A stretch of 64,000 bases of DNA from Xiashengella succiniciproducens (GTDB lineage Bacteria > Bacteroidota > Bacteroidia > Bacteroidales > Marinilabiliaceae). The stretch lies in contig NZ_CP098400.1 of NCBI RefSeq assembly GCF_023674465.1, positions 682,001 to 746,000 of the forward strand, written 5' to 3'. The notes below the pieces were generated by a model. It ran no database searches and had not been told where the DNA came from. It was given only the letters and a program-made list of their open reading frames with translations. Positions 3,755 through 64,000 of the stretch are shown here, one piece after another (position 1 is the stretch's first letter; the number at the start of each line of letters is the position of its first letter). Both the position numbers and the translations under genes were made by a program.

Positions 3755-4263
3755 GTGTGTGCCTTGAATGGTAAATATAAACAAATTTTCACATTTTATT
3801 GTGTGAGAAAGTCCAGAGAGTGCAAGTCTCTTATGTACTTGGGTAACGCCAGGAAACATTAGTAAGTCGCAAGCTGGTTTGGAGTGATCCATGCAGTGAA
3901 GTAAGCGAGACTACAAAAATCTGAACTGACGAACAGGAACGGAATACGAGGCATAATTGTATGGGTGAGTAACCACATCATTGCGAAGCCCAACGAACAC
4001 CACAAGTACAGTTATGTAGATTCCGCAGGATTAGATGGAAGGACATTTACCTTACCGAGGGAGGTCTCTGATGTTGCGTTTTCAGCAATTCAGAGAAGTC
4101 AGCAGAGGTCATAGTACTTTGGAGATACGAGCCACAATAGATATGTGGAGGTCTCACAACCAAAGGAAGGACTGAACGTATTTTGGTTCTTAATTCACAA
4201 CGGAACGTGTCTTTTGACAGGTAGCCTTGGGAAAGCGGAACAGGTTAAAACAAATGAATAAGA

Positions 4264-42032: not shown

Positions 42033-42050
42033 TTAATAACATGGGAAAAA

Positions 42051-42305
42051 GAAGAGGAAGCCCTCAGTGCTAGGCCGCACCAGCTTCCTCTTCGGACTCC
42101 CTCCAAACTTAAAAAGAAAGGAGGTAATGCATTTATGAAATAGGTGGTATTAAGCCAAAATCATCTGGATTAATTCCACAAAGATAAAGATTTAAACAGG
42201 TAACCATATTAATGGATTACAAAAAATGTACCTGCCAGGCAGTGATGTATTACTAAAAAAAGTTTTAATTCAACAAGCTGTTTTTTAAGCAGCTAATCTT
42301 TAACA
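42051..42305 (+). ncRNA. Conserved multi-hairpin leader, copy 1
   Basis: Stem-loop 1 (42051-42093) has an 11-bp perfect stem GAAGAGGAAGC/GCTTCCTCTTC with a variable loop. Stem-loop 2 (42100-42124) pairs CCTCC with GGAGG, masking a Shine-Dalgarno-like sequence just before ATGAAATAG. A hairpin around CTGCCAGGCAG and a last one AGCTG/CAGCT just before the peptide gene follow. The same order occurs at 47.9, 54.8 and 62.8 kb. It is interpreted as a structured leader or small RNA controlling the peptide gene. Confidence 0.6.
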
Positions 42306-42321
42306 AGAAATTCTTATAAAA

Positions 42322-42651
42322 ATGAAAAAGAAAATAATTCTTGCATCAGCAACCGTTTTATTTGCAGTAGCAACCATGTTTAATATGAATATGTTACAAG
42401 GTAATAGTGTGGGCGATGTGTCGCTCGAGAGTATTGCATTGATGGCGAAGGCGTCGGGTGAAGGTGACGGAAACAATTCGGGTGAAGGTGACGGAAACAA
42501 TAAAGCCGAAGGAAGTAAAACCGAAAAGGTCGTTACGTGTGTAGAGTTTAATTATGTCTTTTTTAAATGCAGTAGAACTAAGGAAGTAACGACAACTGTA
42601 CCTTGTTGTACAGGAGGAACTTCAACCTGTTCGGCTTCAATAGATTGCTAA
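42322..42651 (+). CDS. NVEALA-like secreted Cys-rich peptide (peptide 1)
   Basis: 109 residues. The N-terminal MKKKIILASATVLFAVATMF is signal-like. GDVSLESIALMAKA (about 33-46) is the family motif, equivalent to the D-V-x-L-x-N-V-E-A-L-A of NVEALA proteins. The tail has a perfect 8-residue tandem repeat (SGEGDGNN) and seven Cys, ending SASIDC. The leader is nearly constant across the array while the tail differs completely, as in precursor peptides or variable ligands. Confidence 0.75.
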   Translation: MKKKIILASATVLFAVATMFNMNMLQGNSVGDVSLESIALMAKASGEGDGNNSGEGDGNNKAEGSKTEKVVTCVEFNYVFFKCSRTKEVTTTVPCCTGGTSTCSASIDC

Positions 42652-42663
42652 TTATTTCAAAAC

Positions 42664-42691
42664 ACCATCCACTTTTTGTTAAGTGGATGGT
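42664..42691 (+). terminator. Hairpin after peptide 1
   Basis: ACCATCCACTT-TTTGTT-AAGTGGATGGT, a perfect 11-bp stem 12 bp after the peptide stop and 45 bp before propeller 2. It is followed by an A/T-rich stretch but no long U-run, so it may be a partial terminator or an mRNA-stabilising hairpin. Confidence 0.6.
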
Positions 42692-42735
42692 ATTTTATAA
42701 CAAACGGTATATCACACTTTATATCTAACTATATT

Positions 42736-43914
42736 ATGAAACACATATTTTTCTTGTTTTCTGTTTTGTTCACTATCATTTTTATAAGCAGTTGTAATTT
42801 AAACACAACTAGCCATGAGTATCGTGATGTTTGTGATAACACTATCGTTATCGGTGTAACACGCCAAGATTTGATTGATTTCAAGCCCGGTCTGCTATTT
42901 GACAAATTTGATTTAATTCCACTTGAAGAAAGTGCTGAATCATTAGTTGGAGTAATCAAGAAAATGGTAGTAAAGGATTCAGCTATTTTTATTTTAGATG
43001 ACACTAGAAAAATATTACTAAAATTTGATGCTATAGGAAAATATTTGGGTCAGATTGGTTCTATAGGTAGAGGTCAAGGAGAATATTTGCAGCTTGCTGA
43101 TTTTCAAGTATCCAGAGATACTATTTTATTATGGGATTATAGACAAAAGAAAATGGCGTTCTACACCCTGGATGGCTCCTTTATTAAAGAACAGGTCACA
43201 AATGACTATTTTTTATCATTTGCCAAATTAGATAATGACTATTGGGCTTATACAGCCGGAATTAATGAGGAAGGGTCAGGTAAAGAAGGATTCAATCTCA
43301 GAAATTATAAAGGGAACCTTAATTCAAATGATATTTTTGATTTCTTACCCGCTAGCAATTTTTACCCGCGTACATTCAATAAAACAAACATTTTTAATTA
43401 TGGTGACAGTGCAATATTTTCATTTGGATTAAGCAATGTAATTTATAGAATATCTAATTCTGGAATTCATCCATATATATTCGTTGATGCCGGTAAGAAT
43501 TCAATTCCTTATAATACAATTAAGGATCAGCCTTTAAGCATGCAAGAGTGTTCTGATTACGTTAACAATAATGATTATATTGGAATAATCTCCAATTGCC
43601 TTGAATCTAGTCGGTATTTGTACTTTAATGTCACTGAAACGAAAACGGGAGAACTAATTCATACAATTTATGATAAAGTAGACAAGAAATCTCTGAGTTT
43701 CAAGGATATTGTTGAGGATGATTCAAACGTAATAATTAGTGGAACACCTTGCTTTATAGATGATGTATATTTTTACTACCTTTTACCAAGCTTCTATTTT
43801 GATATTCCTAATATTGAAGAATTTATTAAGCAGTATTGCATTAGTGATACATATACAATCAATAACTATAATACTATTTTGATTCGGGCAAGGATCAAAG
43901 ATAGTTTGAAATAG
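42736..43914 (+). CDS. 6-bladed beta-propeller lipoprotein (propeller 2)
   Basis: 392 residues from the ATG at 42736 (MKHIFFLFSVLFTIIFISSC, lipobox Cys20). The blade motif IGSIGRGQGEYLQLADF and the following LLWDYRQKKMAFYTLDGSFI match its relatives in the array, but overall similarity is low. Upstream in-frame codons from 42676 overlap the hairpin and are rejected as start. It is followed by a degraded thioredoxin-like gene. Confidence 0.8.
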   Translation: MKHIFFLFSVLFTIIFISSCNLNTTSHEYRDVCDNTIVIGVTRQDLIDFKPGLLFDKFDLIPLEESAESLVGVIKKMVVKDSAIFILDDTRKILLKFDAIGKYLGQIGSIGRGQGEYLQLADFQVSRDTILLWDYRQKKMAFYTLDGSFIKEQVTNDYFLSFAKLDNDYWAYTAGINEEGSGKEGFNLRNYKGNLNSNDIFDFLPASNFYPRTFNKTNIFNYGDSAIFSFGLSNVIYRISNSGIHPYIFVDAGKNSIPYNTIKDQPLSMQECSDYVNNNDYIGIISNCLESSRYLYFNVTETKTGELIHTIYDKVDKKSLSFKDIVEDDSNVIISGTPCFIDDVYFYYLLPSFYFDIPNIEEFIKQYCISDTYTINNYNTILIRARIKDSLK

Positions 43915-45045: not shown

Positions 45046-45188
45046 AGCAATGAGCTGAATATTGAAAACTGATAACTGGTAACTGAACGTTGGATATTGA
45101 ACTTCGAACTTAAAACCGTGAATCGTAAACTTTTATCTTTAAACCATCATCCTTGAATTTAAAACTCCAAACTCCAAACTCTTGTCCC

Positions 45189-46336
45189 ATGAAACACCTG
45201 TCTTTCCTACTCATCGCAGTAATTTTTTACGCCTGCACCACCTCCAACGCCGGCGAAGCCTCCGAATCGGAAGCTATTGACGCAGCCCGTCTATCGTATG
45301 TTGAACCATCGGCCACCGAAGTAGGCACCGTAACAGTGCGCAAGGCCAATTTTGATATGGAGCTGGTGAGCAATGGCCGGCTGGAGGCACAACGCAAGGC
45401 AGTGGTCCCTTTCAGGGTGCAGGAGCAGATAAATGCAGTATATGTCACCGAGGGCGAAAAAGTCGCTGCTGGCCAGGTGCTGGGAAGTGTAGATGCTTTC
45501 ACCTATAAAAAACGACTCGATGAGGCCAATAACACCTACCAACAGGCAATGATCGACGTAGAGGACAGGCTCCTGGGCTATGGCTATCAGATGGCCGACA
45601 GTCTGCAGATTCCCGAGAACATCATGAAAATGGTGCGCATACGCAGTAATTATAACTCGGCCGTTATAGCTGTGGAGGAGGCCAAACGCAACCTGGAACA
45701 AACAACCATTACAGCGCCCGTCAGCGGAGTGGTTGCCAACCTGGAGGCAAGCATACACAATCCCTCCAGTGCCTGTAAGAAGTTTTTGAGGTGCTCGATT
45801 TAAACACCATGCACCTGGTATTTCACCTTCTCGAGACAGAGCTCTCAGGCATAAAAACTGGACAAACAGTGGAACTCACACCCTTTGCCCTTCCGGGTGA
45901 GTCGTTCAGGGGCACCGTAACCAGCATCAATCCGGCCGTCGACGACAAGGGCATGATACGCATCACCGCCACCGTTCCCAACCCCAATCATCGACTGATG
46001 GATGGGATGAACGCCCGTGTGTTATTAAAAAACACCATCCCCAATTGCCTCATCATCCCCAAAGAAGCAGTGTTATACCGACAAAACCGGCAGGTCGTCT
46101 TTATATACGAAGAGGGCAAAGCCATCTGGAAATACGTGGAGACCAGTCACGAAAACTCAACCCATGTAGCCATCAGCGACGGTCTGGAAGAAGGCATGGA
46201 GGTGATTGTGGAGAATAATTTGAATTTGGCCCACGAGAGTCTAGTTACACAGAGCTCTCTTAGGTTTGCAACAAACAATGCGATTTCAAAAAGCGAGGTT
46301 AATTTTATTCTTTTGTTGTATGAAAGCTGGAATTAA
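45189..46336 (+). pseudogene. RND-type periplasmic adaptor, frameshifted and truncated
   Basis: The lipoprotein signal MKHLSFLLIAVIFYAC leads into a membrane-fusion protein: lipoyl half INAVYVTEGEKVAAGQVLGS, helical hairpin, second half TTITAPVSGVVANLEA. Around 45780-45792 (AAGTTTTTGAGG) the frame shifts by one base. The barrel domains continue in the second frame (EVLDLNTMHLVF to VIVENNLNLAHES). The last 25 residues look foreign, next to the IS110 element. No pump or channel gene accompanies it. Confidence 0.75.
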
Positions 46337-47791: not shown

Positions 47792-47871
47792 AATTCACAG
47801 AGGGAATAATAATAAAAATTCAGTGAAACTCCGTGTCTCCACCGTGCTCTCCGTGAAACAAATGGGAAAAA

Positions 47872-48100
47872 GAAGAGGAAGCCCCTGTGCTCCGCAGCCC
47901 ATGCTTCCTCTTCCGACTCCCTCCAAACTTAAAAAAGAAAGGAGGTTTGAATGATGACGTAAAGATAATAATTTCGAAAAGACACAGGATTACGAACCGT
48001 GATATTTCGAAAAAATGCTACAGCAAGGCAGTAGGGCATTTAAGTTAAGTTTAGAAAACGAATAGCTGTTTATTATCAGCAGCGAATCTTTACATGATTA
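47872..48100 (+). ncRNA. Conserved multi-hairpin leader, copy 2
   Basis: Stem-loop 1 (47872-47913) has the same GAAGAGGAAGC stem with a different loop. Stem-loop 2 pairs CCTCC (47920-47924) with GGAGG (47941-47945), followed by ATGATGACGTAA, a three-codon ORF. The third hairpin is diverged (AATGC-TAC..GCAGTA-GGGCATT). The last is AGCTG..CAGC just before the peptide gene. Layout equals copies 1, 3 and 4. Confidence 0.6.
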
Positions 48101-48112
48101 AAATTTATAATA

Positions 48113-48368
48113 ATGAAAAAAAAAGATAATTTTCGCAATAGCAACAAGTTTTTTCGCAGTAGCGACTGTGTTTAATATGAATCTGTTACAATCAAGCAAT
48201 GCCGGTGATGTTTCACTTGAAAGTATTGCGATAATGGCGCAGGCTCAATATGCAGGAGAAACTGTGCCTGGATATACTAACGCTGAGAATACCGTATGTA
48301 GTATTCCGGGCGGAATGTGTGATGTTAGTGCGCAAAATCCCTGTCAGGCAGGATATGACTGCGATTAA
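48113..48368 (+). pseudogene. NVEALA-like peptide gene with an A-run frameshift (peptide 2)
   Basis: It is identical to peptide 6 (63025) except that the third and fourth codons are expanded to a run of nine A. The extra base throws the ATG at 48113 out of frame with the rest. The intact family frame continues to 48368 (DVSLESIAIMAQAQ, then AGETVPGYTNAENTVCSIPG and four Cys). Slippage in the A-run could restore it, so phase variation is possible. Confidence 0.75.
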
Positions 48369-48380
48369 TAATTTTTATCT

Positions 48381-48403
48381 GGTCGCCGGTGTTTCCGGCG
48401 ACC
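48381..48403 (+). terminator. Hairpin after peptide 2
   Basis: GGTCGCCGG-TGTTT-CCGGCGACC, a perfect GC-rich 9-bp stem between the peptide and propeller 3 genes. It is identical to that after peptide 6. Confidence 0.65.
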
Positions 48404-48446
48404 ATATACTCAAAAATTAGAAATTAATTCTTAATTAAACCCTGAT

Positions 48447-49619
48447 ATGCTTAAAAAGATGCGAACATTTTTATTTTTTTCAATAATTGTTGGGATTTCT
48501 ATTATCTCAGTTTCTTGTAATAATAGGTCCCATAAAGAAAACGAGTATGAAACCATATCAATAACCCCTTCAAACAAACAGCTACCAATGTCGCAATTTA
48601 TTGGTCAAATTGAATATATTAAACTCACAACACCCAAGGGAATGGCTTTAGGGAACATTGAAAAGGTTATTGTACACGATGATCTCTTTTTTGTTCGCCA
48701 TGGCTCATCAAATCCTTCCGTGTCAGTGTTTAATAGTGAAGGGGAATTTCAATATAATATTGGAAAGCAAGGCAGAGGTCCGGGTGAATATGTTGCATTA
48801 AATGATTTTAATATAGATAGGACGCAAAAAACGGTTATTATAATGGATTTAATGCTGCAGAAAATGCATTTTTATAATCTTGACGGTGCATACGTAAGGT
48901 CAGATGCATTACCCATACATGCTTTGAAATTTTCATCTTTAAAGAATGGTGATTATATTTTCTGGGTTGGAAATCTATACAATGAAGTAATGAATAAGAA
49001 TGAGACGACTTTGTGGAATCTCTATGTTGTCAATCCGGATTTGAGTATTAAAGAAAAACATCTTGAGGTTACAAAAGAATTCATGAGTGTTATGAATGGG
49101 TCATTGCCCAGTAGCCTTTCTCCATGTGAAGATGGAGTAAATATTTATGCTCCACTTAGCAATTATATATACCATTATAATGACAGAGGAGAATTTTCAA
49201 CAAAGTATTACCTCGATTTTGGCTCGCTAAACTGCAATTTCCTTAGCGAATTACATCAATATAAAGGCATTAAAAGTTCCTTTGCGTTTAATTTAAGAAA
49301 AACCGGTGCTACATACTATCCCAACCAATTGTTCGAGTTCAAAAAATATTTGTATTTCACATTTATCTCCAATGATGATATGTATTCGGTGTATTACGAC
49401 AAGGAAAATAAGTCTTCTCATGTTACCTTGGGGTATCCAGTTGATGATATAAACGGAGCAATATTTGGCCGAGCTGTAGCGAGTACTCGTAATAGTCTCA
49501 TAACTGTTATTGAACCAGTTCGATTAATGGATGACAATAATAACGTGCCGGAAAAACTGCAGCATTTAAACTTAACCCCTAATAGTAATCCTGTTTTAGC
49601 AAAATATACGATGCGATAG
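48447..49619 (+). CDS. 6-bladed beta-propeller lipoprotein (propeller 3)
   Basis: 390 residues. The signal MLKKMRTFLFFSIIVGISII ends in a lipobox SVSC (Cys24). Blade motifs are SVSVFNSEGEFQYNIG and KQGRGPGEYVALNDF, then MDLMLQKMHFYNLDGAYV. It is a complete gene and is the full-length reference for the truncated copy at the right window edge. No thioredoxin-like or ligase gene follows directly; an IS1380 element does. Confidence 0.82.
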   Translation: MLKKMRTFLFFSIIVGISIISVSCNNRSHKENEYETISITPSNKQLPMSQFIGQIEYIKLTTPKGMALGNIEKVIVHDDLFFVRHGSSNPSVSVFNSEGEFQYNIGKQGRGPGEYVALNDFNIDRTQKTVIIMDLMLQKMHFYNLDGAYVRSDALPIHALKFSSLKNGDYIFWVGNLYNEVMNKNETTLWNLYVVNPDLSIKEKHLEVTKEFMSVMNGSLPSSLSPCEDGVNIYAPLSNYIYHYNDRGEFSTKYYLDFGSLNCNFLSELHQYKGIKSSFAFNLRKTGATYYPNQLFEFKKYLYFTFISNDDMYSVYYDKENKSSHVTLGYPVDDINGAIFGRAVASTRNSLITVIEPVRLMDDNNNVPEKLQHLNLTPNSNPVLAKYTMR

Positions 49620-49854
49620 CGTATTGACTTATTCCGCATATAAATTAAAAAAAAGCGAGGAATTCATAAACCATATTAATGAAGCAAAAAAACATTCTTT
49701 TCATTATTTTGTCTGAGGCCATTAGGTTTTAAATATACAATAACTTTTAACTATACTAATTCGCTATTTTGAGTAATATAAAAAGAGATATAATTCATCA
49801 CATGTTTTAATTCAAACAGGCTGTTAAATCACACAGCTAATTTTTTATCTTTTA
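49620..49854. promoter_or_regulatory. Leader remnant cut by IS1380
   Basis: Near its end this non-coding stretch has TTTTAATTCAAACAGGCTGTT and CACACAGCTAATTTT. It is the same AGCTG/CAGCT-type hairpin that precedes the peptide genes at 42.3 and 55.1 kb. The hairpin is now separated from its peptide gene (51604) by the IS1380 element. The 11-bp stem-loop 1 is not present here. Confidence 0.5.
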
Positions 49855-54783: not shown

Positions 54784-54801
54784 TTAATAACATGGGAAAA
54801 A

Positions 54802-55062
54802 GAAGAGGAAGCCCTCTAGCTCGCACGCTACAGCTTCCTCTTCGGACTCCCTCCAAACCTAAAAAGAAAGGAGGTAATGCAATTATGAAATATGTGGTAT
54901 TAAGCCAGGAATATCTTGAATAATGCCACAAAGATAAAGATTTAAACAGGTAACCTTATTAATGGGTTACAAAATAATGTACCTGCCAGGCAGTGATACA
55001 TTTCATAGTAAAGTTTTAATTCAATAAGGCTGTTATTGAAAATCAGCTAAATTTTACAAATT
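54802..55062 (+). ncRNA. Conserved multi-hairpin leader, copy 3
   Basis: Stem-loop 1 is at 54802-54843, with the same 11-bp stem and a loop CCTCTAGCTCGCACGCTACA. Stem-loop 2 is at 54850-54874 (CCTCC/GGAGG). The masked Shine-Dalgarno precedes a 12-codon ORF (MKYVVLSQEYLE, ATG 54885). Then CAGGTA..TACCTG, ATGTA..CTGCC-AGGCAG..TACAT and GGCTG..CAGC hairpins lead to peptide 4. The small ORF is longest in this copy. Confidence 0.6.
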
Positions 55063-55077
55063 AGAAAATTTAATATC

Positions 55078-55548
55078 ATGAAAAAGAAAATAGTTTTTGC
55101 AGTAGCAACCGGATTCTTTGCAGTAGCAACCGTGTTTAATATGAATTTGTTACAATCAAATAAGGCTGGGGATGTTTCACTTGATGCTATTGCCGTAATG
55201 GCGCAGGCGCAGAAAGAGATAGAAGAAGATAAGAAAGAAGACATCTATCATAAAGGAACCACGGGAACTAATTGGAAAACATATACAGTGGACTGTGAAC
55301 TTGGACCAAGTATATCTGTGACAGAAGAAAGGTACGGCGGATCTCATTCTAGCTCTTTTGGAGCAAGTGTCCCTATTCCAGGCACCCCAGTTTCAGTATC
55401 AGCAAACAGAAGTACTTCTGCTTATTATCATAAGCAAACGACAAACAGGCAACCAATTCCACCTAAAACGATTATAAAAGATGTATGTGGATCTGGTGTC
55501 GGTTTCTGTTTGGAATCTGCACCTAAAAGTGGGAATCCATGCTCATAA
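55078..55548 (+). CDS. NVEALA-like peptide with long tail (peptide 4)
   Basis: 156 residues. MKKKIVFAVATGFFAVATVF and GDVSLDAIAVMAQAQ (about 32-46) are the constant part. The tail is the longest in the array: charged KEIEEDKKEDIYHK, a Ser/Gly-rich centre (GGSHSSSFGASVPIPG) and four Cys, with three in the last 22 residues (VCGSGVGFCLE, NPCS). It keeps the pattern of a Cys at or next to the C terminus. Confidence 0.75.
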   Translation: MKKKIVFAVATGFFAVATVFNMNLLQSNKAGDVSLDAIAVMAQAQKEIEEDKKEDIYHKGTTGTNWKTYTVDCELGPSISVTEERYGGSHSSSFGASVPIPGTPVSVSANRSTSAYYHKQTTNRQPIPPKTIIKDVCGSGVGFCLESAPKSGNPCS

Positions 55549-55636: not shown

Positions 55637-56890
55637 ATGAAGAAAATTGCATTGTGTTTTTTGCCAATAATAGTAACCTCTTGTACTTTTTTAAATAAAA
55701 GAATACCAGAAAAATTTAAAGATGTTGATGTTAACCAAATTACAGGTAATATTAAGACAGGCTCGGTAAAAAAAGGATTGAACAAAGAGATTGCCATTGA
55801 GGATTTTGATCTAAATTTTGAATTGTTTCTACCTGATATCATTGAAACAGCTTATGGTATTAAGTTAGATAATGCTCCAGATGCACTTATAGGTTCTATT
55901 GAAAAAATCAGGTTGTCTGATAATTACATTTTCCTGCTTGATAGATACACTACAAAATCAGTGAAAAAGTTTAATATAGATGGAAGCTTTATTACAAACA
56001 TTGGACAAAAGGGTAATGGTCCAGGTGAGTATATTCAACCAACTGATTTTTATTTAGGGGACAGTATTATTGTTATATATGATCAATTTAAATCATCACT
56101 TTTGTTTTACGATTTGGATGGCAATTTTATTAAAAACAAAAACATACCTTTTTTTGCTGTCTCATTCCATATCTTTGACAGTAATACATACGTCTTCCAC
56201 ACGCTCGACTCTGATAATTATCATTTACCTGACATAATAAATTATTCTTTGGTTTGGACAGATTCTACTTTCAATGTTAAACATGTGAATGCATTTAGGG
56301 AAAAAGATCGATATTTGAGCTTTCTTTCGAAGAACAATATGGATCTATATAACAACAAGTTATATTACCACGAACCATTTAATGACACAATCTTCAGAGT
56401 TTCTGCTTCCGGGGACATTTATTACGATTATATCATTACTTTTCCAGGAAATGAACTTCCCAGAAAACTCCTATTGAAAGAAAACAAAAAAGATTTCTTA
56501 AAAGCAACTGATATTAATTCCACAAACAACTACGTTGTGAAAACTTCCAATCCGATTATCACAAAAGATTTCATATTTATGCCGATAGTGAGAAACGCAA
56601 GTAAGGTTAGTATTATTTATAATTCCAACAGGTTACTATTAGATGTATGTAATTACAGTAGTGATCAACCTATCTCATTTATGCCACCATTTCGCAATAT
56701 CCTGAATTGTAAAGATAATACAATCATAGGATATGTTAATTCATACGAAATTTCCGAACATTTTGAGTATATGAAACGAGAAAACCGCCTTCATTTATTA
56801 ACAGAAGAATTTATTGATTTGGCTAAAAATGTTAATGAAACAGATAACGCTATTATTGTTTTTTCCAAATTGAAGAATGTTGAACAATAG
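55637..56890 (+). CDS. 6-bladed beta-propeller lipoprotein (propeller 4)
   Basis: 417 residues, signal MKKIALCFLPIIVTSC (lipobox Cys16). An N-terminal extension of about 50 residues precedes the first blade. KKFNIDGSFITNIGQKGNG then PGEYIQPTDFYLGDSIIV is the blade motif. It is intact and diverged from propellers 1 to 3. It is followed by the IS-interrupted Trx 3 gene. Confidence 0.8.
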   Translation: MKKIALCFLPIIVTSCTFLNKRIPEKFKDVDVNQITGNIKTGSVKKGLNKEIAIEDFDLNFELFLPDIIETAYGIKLDNAPDALIGSIEKIRLSDNYIFLLDRYTTKSVKKFNIDGSFITNIGQKGNGPGEYIQPTDFYLGDSIIVIYDQFKSSLLFYDLDGNFIKNKNIPFFAVSFHIFDSNTYVFHTLDSDNYHLPDIINYSLVWTDSTFNVKHVNAFREKDRYLSFLSKNNMDLYNNKLYYHEPFNDTIFRVSASGDIYYDYIITFPGNELPRKLLLKENKKDFLKATDINSTNNYVVKTSNPIITKDFIFMPIVRNASKVSIIYNSNRLLLDVCNYSSDQPISFMPPFRNILNCKDNTIIGYVNSYEISEHFEYMKRENRLHLLTEEFIDLAKNVNETDNAIIVFSKLKNVEQ

Positions 56891-61244: not shown

Positions 61245-62738
61245 ATGAAAAAAGGCAGCGCCCATATCGTAACACTGGTTCAGCTACTGATCCTATGCGC
61301 CATGTTCTCAACGGCGTTTATGGTGTCCCGGGGCTTCTTTAACGACCTGCTTACCGCCAAACAATACGGTCTTGAAATCTGCGCTCTGTTTGGTACGGTT
61401 CTTCTGGCGCTCACCCTTATCGCCGCAGCACTTGTACTGCCTCCCGCGCAATCCAGGGCAGCCTGGATTGCAGGCACGGTCGGGTGCCTATTCGTGTTGA
61501 CATGCCATCCGGTATTTAAGTCCTTCTGGCATAGTTTAAAAAATAAGCTTCATTCCTTCTCAATACCCATGCGGGTATTGTGCTTGCTTGCCATCCTGCT
61601 TGTCGTTCTGGTTATAGGCTTTGGACTTTACACCATAAAAAAGGGCTCGGCAGACGGCAGAGTGCTCATTTGGCAGGTCACCAGTCAGCTGATAAAACAA
61701 AAACCCATAATGGGTCATGGTTCAGGTGCATTTGCAGCGTTGTATATGAATGAGCAGGCCAACTGGTTCGAAGCAGGCAAAGGAAGCGAAGTGCAATCTA
61801 TGGTGGCCGGCTCACCGGAAGCTCCCTTTAATGAAGTATTGAAGCTCTGGCTGGAAAAGGGCCTCCTTGCTGTTGTTCTGGCCGGTGCCCTACTGTATTT
61901 CTTGTTAAGAGACAAAAGTCTTCCAGCGGCCTCATCATGGCAAACAGACCAGGACCAAGAGCAATCATTTGATGGCCCAGTCCCAAACATTGGTGTCAAG
62001 GGTTCTTTGCTTGCCCTGTTGGTCTTCAGCTACTTCTCCTATCCCTTCGCTATCAGCTCCTTTGTTTTGCAGCTGGTCGTCTTGGTAGCACTCTTAGCAG
62101 GAGCAAGCACGCAATTATTTAGTATTACTGGATCAAGAGCGCTGTTTCTGACTTTACCGACAGCTTTTGCAATTATCATAGTCTCTGTCTATTTTCTCCC
62201 TCAACGTCAGGCGCATTATCAAGCGATGAAGATCTGGAATCAAGCAGATCAGTTATACTACTTAACAGCTTACAAAGCATCCGTAGCAGCCTACCAGGAA
62301 ACATTCCCTCAATTACAAAATAACGGACTTTTCCTTCAGATGTATGGCAAAGCACTCAGTATGACCGAGAAGCACGAAGAAAGCAACAAAGTACTTATTC
62401 TTGCTCAAAAGTACCTCAGCAGTCAAATCATCCAAAATACGCTTGGCGACAACCATAAAGCACTGGGCAACTTTGAAGCTGCAGAAAAGGCTTATCGTAA
62501 AAGTAGCCTAATGATTCCTTCTTCATTGCTGCCCAAATACCTGGCTGCTAAACTATTTATAGATAGCGACCAGCTCAATAAAGCAAAACAAACCGCAGAT
62601 GATATTCTCAAAAGCACAATAAAAGTTGAGTCATCAGCAACTAGAGAAATAATGAATGAAATGAACGAAATAGTTACAAAGAGTTTAACGGAGAAGACAC
62701 ACAGGCACACAGAGGAAAAAACAATAAAGCCTCAGTAA
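61245..62738 (+). CDS. O-antigen-ligase-like protein with TPRs, mosaic and internally deleted (ligase 3)
   Basis: 497 residues. It shares the 156-residue deletion after Leu58 with ligase 1. From 61245 to about 62070 it follows ligase 1, from about 62070 to 62430 ligase 2 (STQLFSITGSRALFLTL..; YYLTAYKASVAAYQETFPQL), then ligase 1 again (KLFIDSDQLNKAKQTADDIL). The end differs from both (SLTEKTHRHTEEKTIKPQ), running into the upstream part of repeat R2. It is probably impaired by the loss of membrane helices. Confidence 0.75.
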   Translation: MKKGSAHIVTLVQLLILCAMFSTAFMVSRGFFNDLLTAKQYGLEICALFGTVLLALTLIAAALVLPPAQSRAAWIAGTVGCLFVLTCHPVFKSFWHSLKNKLHSFSIPMRVLCLLAILLVVLVIGFGLYTIKKGSADGRVLIWQVTSQLIKQKPIMGHGSGAFAALYMNEQANWFEAGKGSEVQSMVAGSPEAPFNEVLKLWLEKGLLAVVLAGALLYFLLRDKSLPAASSWQTDQDQEQSFDGPVPNIGVKGSLLALLVFSYFSYPFAISSFVLQLVVLVALLAGASTQLFSITGSRALFLTLPTAFAIIIVSVYFLPQRQAHYQAMKIWNQADQLYYLTAYKASVAAYQETFPQLQNNGLFLQMYGKALSMTEKHEESNKVLILAQKYLSSQIIQNTLGDNHKALGNFEAAEKAYRKSSLMIPSSLLPKYLAAKLFIDSDQLNKAKQTADDILKSTIKVESSATREIMNEMNEIVTKSLTEKTHRHTEEKTIKPQ

Positions 62739-62783
62739 AACTCCGTGTTTCCACCGTTCTCTCCGTGCAACAAATGGGAAAAA

Positions 62784-63010
62784 GAAGAGGAAGCCCCTGT
62801 GCTGCGACGCCCATGCTTCCTCTTCCGACTCCCTCCAAACTTAAAAAAGAAAGGAGGTTTGAATGATGACGTAAAGATAATAATTTCGAAAAGACACAGG
62901 ATTACGAACCGTGATATTTCGAAAAAATGCTACTGCAAGGCAGTAGGGCATTTAAGTTAAGTTTAGAAAACGAATAGCTGTTTATTATCAGCAGCGAATC
63001 TTTACATGAT
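62784..63010 (+). ncRNA. Conserved multi-hairpin leader, copy 4
   Basis: Stem-loop 1 is at 62784-62825 and stem-loop 2 at 62832-62857 (CCTCC/GGAGG). The third hairpin AATGC-TACTGC-AAG-GCAGTA-GGGCATT (62927-62953) is perfect in its core; copy 2 has a mismatch there. The loop of stem-loop 1 differs from copy 2 (CCCTGTGCTGCGACGCCCAT), although flanking sequence is nearly identical. This suggests that the loop changes fast. Confidence 0.6.
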
Positions 63011-63024
63011 TAAAATTTATAATA

Positions 63025-63279
63025 ATGAAAAAGAAAATTATTTTCGCAATAGCAACAAGTTTTTTCGCAGTAGCGACTGTGTTTAATATGAATCTGTTAC
63101 AATCAAGCAATGCCGGTGATGTTTCACTTGAAAGTATTGCGATAATGGCGCAGGCTCAATATGCAGGAGAAACTGTGCCTGGATATACTAACGCTGAGAA
63201 TACCGTATGTAGTATTCCGGGCGGAATGTGTGATGTTAGTGCGCAAAATCCCTGTCAGGCAGGATATGACTGCGATTAA
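63025..63279 (+). CDS. NVEALA-like secreted Cys-rich peptide (peptide 6)
   Basis: 84 residues with an intact start (MKKKIIFAIATSFFAVATVF). The motif GDVSLESIAIMAQAQ lies at about 31-45, and the tail YAGETVPGYTNAENTVCSIP continues GGMCDVSAQNPCQAGYDCD with four Cys. It is the functional version of peptide 2. The signal segment predicts export, and the motif region ends near where a leader could be cleaved. Confidence 0.8.
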   Translation: MKKKIIFAIATSFFAVATVFNMNLLQSSNAGDVSLESIAIMAQAQYAGETVPGYTNAENTVCSIPGGMCDVSAQNPCQAGYDCD

Positions 63280-63291
63280 TAATTTTTATCT

Positions 63292-63314
63292 GGTCGCCGG
63301 TGTTTCCGGCGACC
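63292..63314 (+). terminator. Hairpin after peptide 6
   Basis: GGTCGCCGG-TGTTT-CCGGCGACC, identical to the hairpin at 48381-48403 and in the same place relative to the peptide and propeller genes. Confidence 0.65.
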
Positions 63315-63357
63315 ATATACTCAAAAATTAGAAATTAATTCTTAATTAAACCCTGAT

Positions 63358-64000
63358 ATGCTTAAAAAGATGCGAACATTTTTATTTTTTTCAATAATTG
63401 TTGGGATTTCTATTATCTCAGTTTCTTGTAATAATAGGTCCCATAAAGAAAACGAGTATGAAACCATATCAATAACCCCTTCAAACAAACAGCTACCAAT
63501 GTCGCAATTTATTGGTCAAATTGAATATATTAAACTCACAACACCCAAGGGAATGGCTTTAGGGAACATTGAAAAGGTTATTGTACACGATGATCTCTTT
63601 TTTGTTCGCCATGGCTCATCAAATCCTTCCGTGTCAGTGTTTAATAGTGAAGGGGAATTTCAATATAATATTGGAAAGCAAGGCAGAGGTCCGGGTGAAT
63701 ATGTTGCATTAAATGATTTTAATATAGATAGGACGCAAAAAACGGTTATTATAATGGATTTAATGCTGCAGAAAATGCATTTTTATAATCTTGACGGTGC
63801 ATACGTAAGGTCAGATGCATTACCCATACATGCTTTGAAATTTTCATCTTTAAAGAATGGTGATTATATTTTCTGGGTTGGAAATCTATACAATGAAGTA
63901 ATGAATAAGAATGAGACGACTTTGTGGAATCTCTATGTTGTCAATCCGGATTTGAGTATTAAAGAAAAACATCTTGAGGTTACAAAAGAATTCATGAGTG
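63358..64000 (+). CDS. 6-bladed beta-propeller lipoprotein, partial (propeller 3')
   Basis: 214 codons are visible before the window edge, identical in sequence to propeller 3 (signal, lipobox SVSC, GRGPGEYVALNDF blade). The right end of the gene is outside the window. Confidence 0.85.
   Translation, partial: MLKKMRTFLFFSIIVGISIISVSCNNRSHKENEYETISITPSNKQLPMSQFIGQIEYIKLTTPKGMALGNIEKVIVHDDLFFVRHGSSNPSVSVFNSEGEFQYNIGKQGRGPGEYVALNDFNIDRTQKTVIIMDLMLQKMHFYNLDGAYVRSDALPIHALKFSSLKNGDYIFWVGNLYNEVMNKNETTLWNLYVVNPDLSIKEKHLEVTKEFMS

Follow-up and report, generated by a model that had tools for sequence, protein, structure and literature searches.

The nearest described system to the RNA reported here is that of the FopS and GibS small RNAs of Bacteroides thetaiotaomicron, with which it shares a design: multi-copy paralogous Bacteroidales sRNAs in which a conserved 5′ seed is followed by an intrinsic terminator (PMC11697453, PMC7366714). 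FopS has canonical sigma-ABfr promoters, and the sRNAs of this kind are 65–70 nt long (PMC11697453, PMC7366714). According to PMC11697453, the 5′ stretch of FopS is single-stranded and its paralogues have sub-diversified little; pairing with the start regions of SusC-like mRNAs is a further trait of FopS. In the accessible parts of these sources, no link to peptide genes is described (PMC11697453, PMC7366714). A second point of comparison is the extended Shine-Dalgarno (SD) sequence of rpsU, which serves bS21 autoregulation and uses the same 16S 3′-tail sequence and its complement (PMC9976891); there the SD lies on an mRNA, whereas the RNA described here would carry an anti-SD copy on a conserved transcript.

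Here we describe a repeated element in a 64,000-nucleotide stretch of the Xiashengella succiniciproducens genome (contig NZ_CP098400.1, positions 682,001 to 746,000), hereafter the window. Judging from sequence comparison, we put at roughly 0.8 the probability that the element is a discrete small RNA gene on the minus strand, one of a family placed back-to-back with secreted-peptide genes. It differs from FopS in that its 5′ end, ACCUCCUUUC, lies in a predicted hairpin (the fold pairs the 5′ ACCUCC with GGAGG, so that the FopS-type single-stranded seed is not seen), in a terminator loop that diverges by copy, and in the divergent secreted-peptide genes beside it. The resemblance between the two systems is one of design. 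A search of Rfam 15 gave no match to the RNA.

A predicted small RNA gene on the minus strand

The element occurs four times in the window, at 42.05, 47.87, 54.80 and 62.78 kb as an earlier note on this DNA had listed, and a fifth time ~8 kb past the window end (G000:C1:753933). Its 11-bp stem, GAAGAGGAAGC/GCTTCCTCTTC, was recovered at all four positions (42051-42061/42083-42093, 47872-47882/47903-47913, 54802-54812/54833-54843, and 62784-62794/62815-62825), and a pattern search of the complete 3.1-Mb genome gave exactly five copies, with zero matches for the reversed control pattern. Allowing at most one mismatch, the stem pattern has 9 matches against 0.96 expected, with 0 of 100 shuffles reaching that number. 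Comparison of the four window loops bears out that each is different. The other features of the same note were found as well: a CCTCC/GGAGG hairpin and two inverted repeats, CTGC/GGCAG and AGCTG/CAGCT.

Read on the minus strand, every window copy has a TAnnTTTG-like −7 box, a constant start ACCUCCUUUCU, a strong hairpin, and then TTTTTCCC, as in an intrinsic terminator; in full, the order is −7 box, ACCTCCTTTCTTTTT..., GGAGGGAG, terminator stem, variable loop, stem, and TTTTTCCC. For the primary sigma factor of Bacteroidota, the −7 consensus has been published as TAnnTTTG (PMC7366714). Copy 1 is of a long type with a predicted length of ~130 nt (42043..42173, minus strand, exact ends estimated; R2 match 42041-42130 minus, 93.3 bits), with a −7 box TATCTTTG at 42179..42186, an ACCTCC...GGAGG 5′ hairpin at 42100..42125 in which ACCTCCTTTC is the near-invariant start, and a terminator hairpin plus T-run at 42046..42093 (11 bp stem, variable loop 42062-42082), all on the minus strand. 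Copy 3 is also long (54794..54923, minus strand; 95.9 bits; −7 box TATCTTTG at 54929..54936, minus strand), and copies 2 and 4 are of a short type of ~90 nt (47864..47954 and 62776..62866, both minus strand; R2 matches of 104.1 and 102.8 bits; −7 box TATCTTTA at 47960..47967 and 62872..62879, minus strand), the ends of all three again being estimates.

We assign the element to the minus strand because of a G.U asymmetry, the T-run, the −7 box, and the stronger fold. Across 46 homologues, one-sided changes in the terminator stem give 16 G.U cells in the minus reading versus 1 A.C, the T content of the 8 nt beyond the hairpin is 5.0 on the minus strand versus 1.3 on the plus strand, and the consensus fold reaches −21.7 kcal/mol on the minus strand versus −13.5 on the plus strand. 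The motif TAnnTTT[GA] lies no more than 26 nt from CCTCC at 27 of the 46 loci, versus 2.4% of control windows, and about 10 further copies are of the long type, having the box at −62 to −68 and an insert of ~50 nt that often includes a 5′ hairpin. A −7 box, 14–22 nt (short) or 62–68 nt (long) before CCTCC, is present in about 37 of 46 copies, and 9 of 46 loci have none recognisable under the TAnnTTT[GA] pattern. Conservation falls off a few bases past the T-run of TTTTTCCC. The element accordingly combines a putative promoter of its own with a covarying stem and T-run on the same strand, as expected of an sRNA gene with an intrinsic terminator, and the strand, promoter, and terminator of the predicted RNA are supported by comparative data. 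Most copies (for example L008, L010, L013, and L021) also have, in the minus-strand −35 region on the stretch that separates the RNA promoter from the peptide gene, inverted repeats whose arms vary by copy while their symmetry is kept; these are a possible candidate operator for divergent transcription.

Covariation and the constant 5′ end

The earlier note had spoken of a structured RNA, and a covariance-model comparison of the 46 homologues gives this strong support. Ten of the 11 terminator-stem pairs have pairing-preserving changes on both sides, evident by eye in GAAGGGGGAGC/GCTTCCCCTTC, GAACAGGAAGC/GCTTCCTGTTC, and GCAGGGCAACC/GGTTGCTCCTGC, and the number of two-sided changed cells is 43 versus 5.4 in shuffles (0 of 500), with slid controls far lower. 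Overall, 98.4% of cells pair. All of these pair counts lean towards the model structure, to which the alignment was fitted. An apical inner stem beyond GC/GC is weakly supported (p = 0.035).

The first hairpin behaves differently from the terminator: its 5′ side, CCTCCTTTC, is almost unchanging, and its 3′ side alternates among GGAGG, GAAAGG, and AGGGGAG. A constant 5′ side opposite a switching 3′ side indicates that some other constraint probably holds the 5′ end of the RNA. The constant start ACCTCCTTTCT (that is, ACCUCCUUUCU) exactly matches the final 11 nt of the 16S rRNA in this organism, whose 16S 3′ end reads ...ATACCTCCTTTCT; the 16S complement was read in L148.

Homologues and partner genes

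By DNA search, 8 of 61 genomes carry the element. A covariance model detected it in 11 of 71 genomes of the family, spread over 9 of 21 genera, and a broader covariance model found 11 carriers among 393 genomes of the order. Named carriers include Alkaliflexus imshenetskii, Alkalitalea saponilacus, Natronoflexus pectinivorans, Anaerophaga thermohalophila, Marinilabilia rubra, and Geofilum rubicundum. One extra carrier genome in the phylum (L114) has a perfect −7 box; the model matches L115, inside a long ORF, and L116 were excluded as likely chance. About a dozen Bacteroidales families carry the RNA with differing terminator stems and a shared CCUCCUUUC start. The pattern of promoter plus start has matches in 30 of 295 genomes, above the reversed control, although several of these fall in coding sequence and are chance. 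Among its matches is a shorter class of RNA, of about 65–75 nt and starting with CCTCCTTTC (L212, L213, L215, L220, L225, L226, and L227), in which the CCTCC start pairs directly with the terminator 3′ arm (AAGGAGG-TTTTT); two of these are divergent from GG-leader peptides that weakly match TIGR04149. Phages and plasmids gave no convincing match: fifteen IMG/VR contigs share GGAAAAAGAAGAGGAAGC only, and no viral contig matched the fuller RNA pattern.

Where the flanking DNA is long enough, the RNA nearly always lies divergent from a gene for a small secreted peptide, which comes next on the plus strand. In the window, these peptide genes lie on the plus strand at 42322..42651 (cassette 1), 48114..48369 (cassette 2, with a frameshift close to its start when compared with the near-identical cassette 4), 55078..55548 (cassette 3), and 63025..63279 (cassette 4); none has a Pfam match over the cut-off, and we call them NVEALA-like by motif resemblance. 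A 6-bladed beta-propeller gene (DUF5128) follows peptide 1 on the plus strand at 42676..43914, and others lie likewise at 48447-49619 and 55637-56890. Elsewhere, the partner genes belong to NVEALA (PF14055) and TIGR04149 radical-SAM RiPP precursor loci: L082 has a Pfam NVEALA protein as its neighbour (46.9 bits), and L093 and L084 each adjoin a TIGR04149 RiPP precursor (54.4 and 40.5 bits). A reverse search from 30 NVEALA loci of the order found an exact CCTCCTTTC at 8 of 30, two of them already found by the model, against a chance expectation of about 0.02 per locus (9 bases over about 6 kb of strand). In every case the motif lies immediately upstream of the peptide gene on the opposite strand; most have a −7 box, and the terminators are unrelated. 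The exact-motif check found no such RNA at the other 22 of 30 loci. Our literature searches returned no paper on NVEALA in Bacteroidota and, for small RNAs with propeller genes, only an unrelated iron study. Elsewhere in the window, a Group II intron D1-D4 RNA (RF02001, 111.8 bits) lies at 3878-4050, and a HlyD-type membrane-fusion protein (45153-46336) spans two overlapping frames and is thus probably broken.

Variation of the terminator loop

Variation in the terminator loop is non-random, and the loop types look reassorted by recombination. The same loops recur in other genera and genomes (that of copy 2 in Alkaliflexus, of copy 5 in Natronoflexus, and of copy 4 in a metagenome-assembled genome), and the central loop hexamer reappears with different flanks. 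Copy 5 is a mosaic that breaks at the RNA gene, being like copies 1/3 upstream and like copies 2/4 downstream. Copies 2 and 4 are 99.2% identical over 2 kb, with differences clustered at and left of the loop: three in the loop, 10 more in the 53 bp immediately left, and almost none in the next 2 kb. We considered hypermutation of the loop and dropped it, since the differences left of the loop put the edge of a duplication in or near the RNA gene, so that recombination suffices. Cassettes 2 and 4 themselves (47796-49854, and 62708-64000 with its continuation in L005) stem from a very recent duplication, and beyond these 2 kb a further 1.7 kb, including a DDE transposase, is 100% identical.

Alternative explanations

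The earlier note placed the element on the plus strand, as the leader of the peptide mRNA, in which a hairpin would hide an SD before a mini-ORF and thereby allow translation-coupled attenuation. The sequence AGAAAGGAGGT is indeed a perfect SD, with an ATG 3–12 nt past GGAGG in 25 of 46 copies, and extended SDs do work on Bacteroidota rpsU (PMC9976891). The plus-strand reading, however, turns the one-sided stem changes into A.C mismatches (the 16 versus 1 asymmetry), and it finds no T-run on its strand; the mini-ORF is missing in 21 of 46 copies and in the rest runs for 1–15 unrelated codons of no consistent length, and the conserved ATGACGTAAAGATAA/ATGTGACAAAGATA block is explained by the minus-strand −7 box. 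With promoter box and terminator both on the minus strand, the apparent SD is the complement of the 5′ end of the minus-strand RNA, and we consider a leader very unlikely. A micropeptide ORF through the hairpin (MGKRRGSP...) was likewise rejected, as homologues have CTG, GCG, or TAG for the ATG before GGGAAA. A bidirectional or convergent terminator that lies between the upstream gene and the peptide operon and does not function as an RNA would suit the position between ligase and peptide genes that the earlier note reported, which holds for copies 1, 3, and 4, each between a ligase gene 3′ end and a peptide gene; yet copy 2 (47.87 kb) is preceded by an IS110 transposase and repetitive filler. 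The T-run is moreover on the strand heading away from the peptide, and a near-invariant 5′ ACCTCCTTTC and a dedicated −7 box would be superfluous in a terminator, which makes this reading similarly improbable.

The element could also be a DNA site at which site-specific or single-strand recombination would shuffle the cassettes, the loop serving as an address. Cassette mosaics do break there, as in copy 5, and loop types recur across genera, so the earlier note's 'recombination site' stands insofar as the RNA gene marks mosaic boundaries. Those boundaries are, however, explained by plain homologous recombination, for which a conserved ~90 bp repeat is already a substrate; no recombinase was consistently seen next to the element, and a promoter box, a T-run, and a G.U asymmetry are marks of transcribed sequence. 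This has the slimmest prospect of the explanations considered.

Possible function

For a minus-strand RNA gene, the most likely function is regulatory, with the copies forming a multi-copy sRNA family. Transcription by the primary Bacteroidota sigma factor would yield an RNA of about 90 nt, or of about 130 nt where a further 5′ hairpin is present, from the TAnnTTTG-type promoter on the minus strand, ending at the intrinsic terminator with the varying loop. The constant 5′ end ACCUCCUUUCU, loosely held in the first hairpin, would be a shared seed that base pairs with a small number of target mRNAs at GGAGG-type sites; copy-specific recognition may come in addition from the exchangeable apical loop; and divergent transcription would couple the RNA level to the state of the peptide cassette, whose partner gene is NVEALA-like here and an NVEALA or radical-SAM RiPP precursor elsewhere. 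Pairing of seed or loop with the start region of the neighbouring peptide was no better than for non-cognate pairs, and the full seed complement at gene starts in six genomes was near control, with no enrichment; in the organism's own genome, 4 of 7 non-RNA matches to the seed complement are 16S genes. Because these cognate-pairing and seed-complement searches gave no preference, the regulatory mechanism is one that we infer, and the seed mechanism taken by itself is possible but doubtful. Of two genes considered as targets, rpsU lacks an SD in 7 of 8 carrier genomes, and rpsR has an SD in 4 of 6 readable ones.

Bacteroidota ribosomes hide the 16S 3′ tail, and SD pairing is not normally used. 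The 5′ end of the RNA might be a true mimic of this tail, an anti-SD copy that captures a few SD-led mRNAs (for example rpsR) or tail-holding platform proteins, with apical loops as cassette addresses, coupling secreted-peptide expression to ribosome specialisation; we think this unlikely. The identity of the start with the 16S 3′ tail does pose a directly testable question of translation control, and several carriers are cultured type strains. We found no description of the regulation of Bacteroidales secreted peptides (NVEALA proteins and radical-SAM RiPPs), for which the RNA gene would be a first handle; lying beside peptide genes across families, it may also be a marker by which to find such loci. 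One locus (L161, G028:C46) has a gene that looks cydB-like by eye, judged from the N-terminus alone, and that carries a full SD GAAAGGAGGTCCAAATG, which is rare in the phylum.
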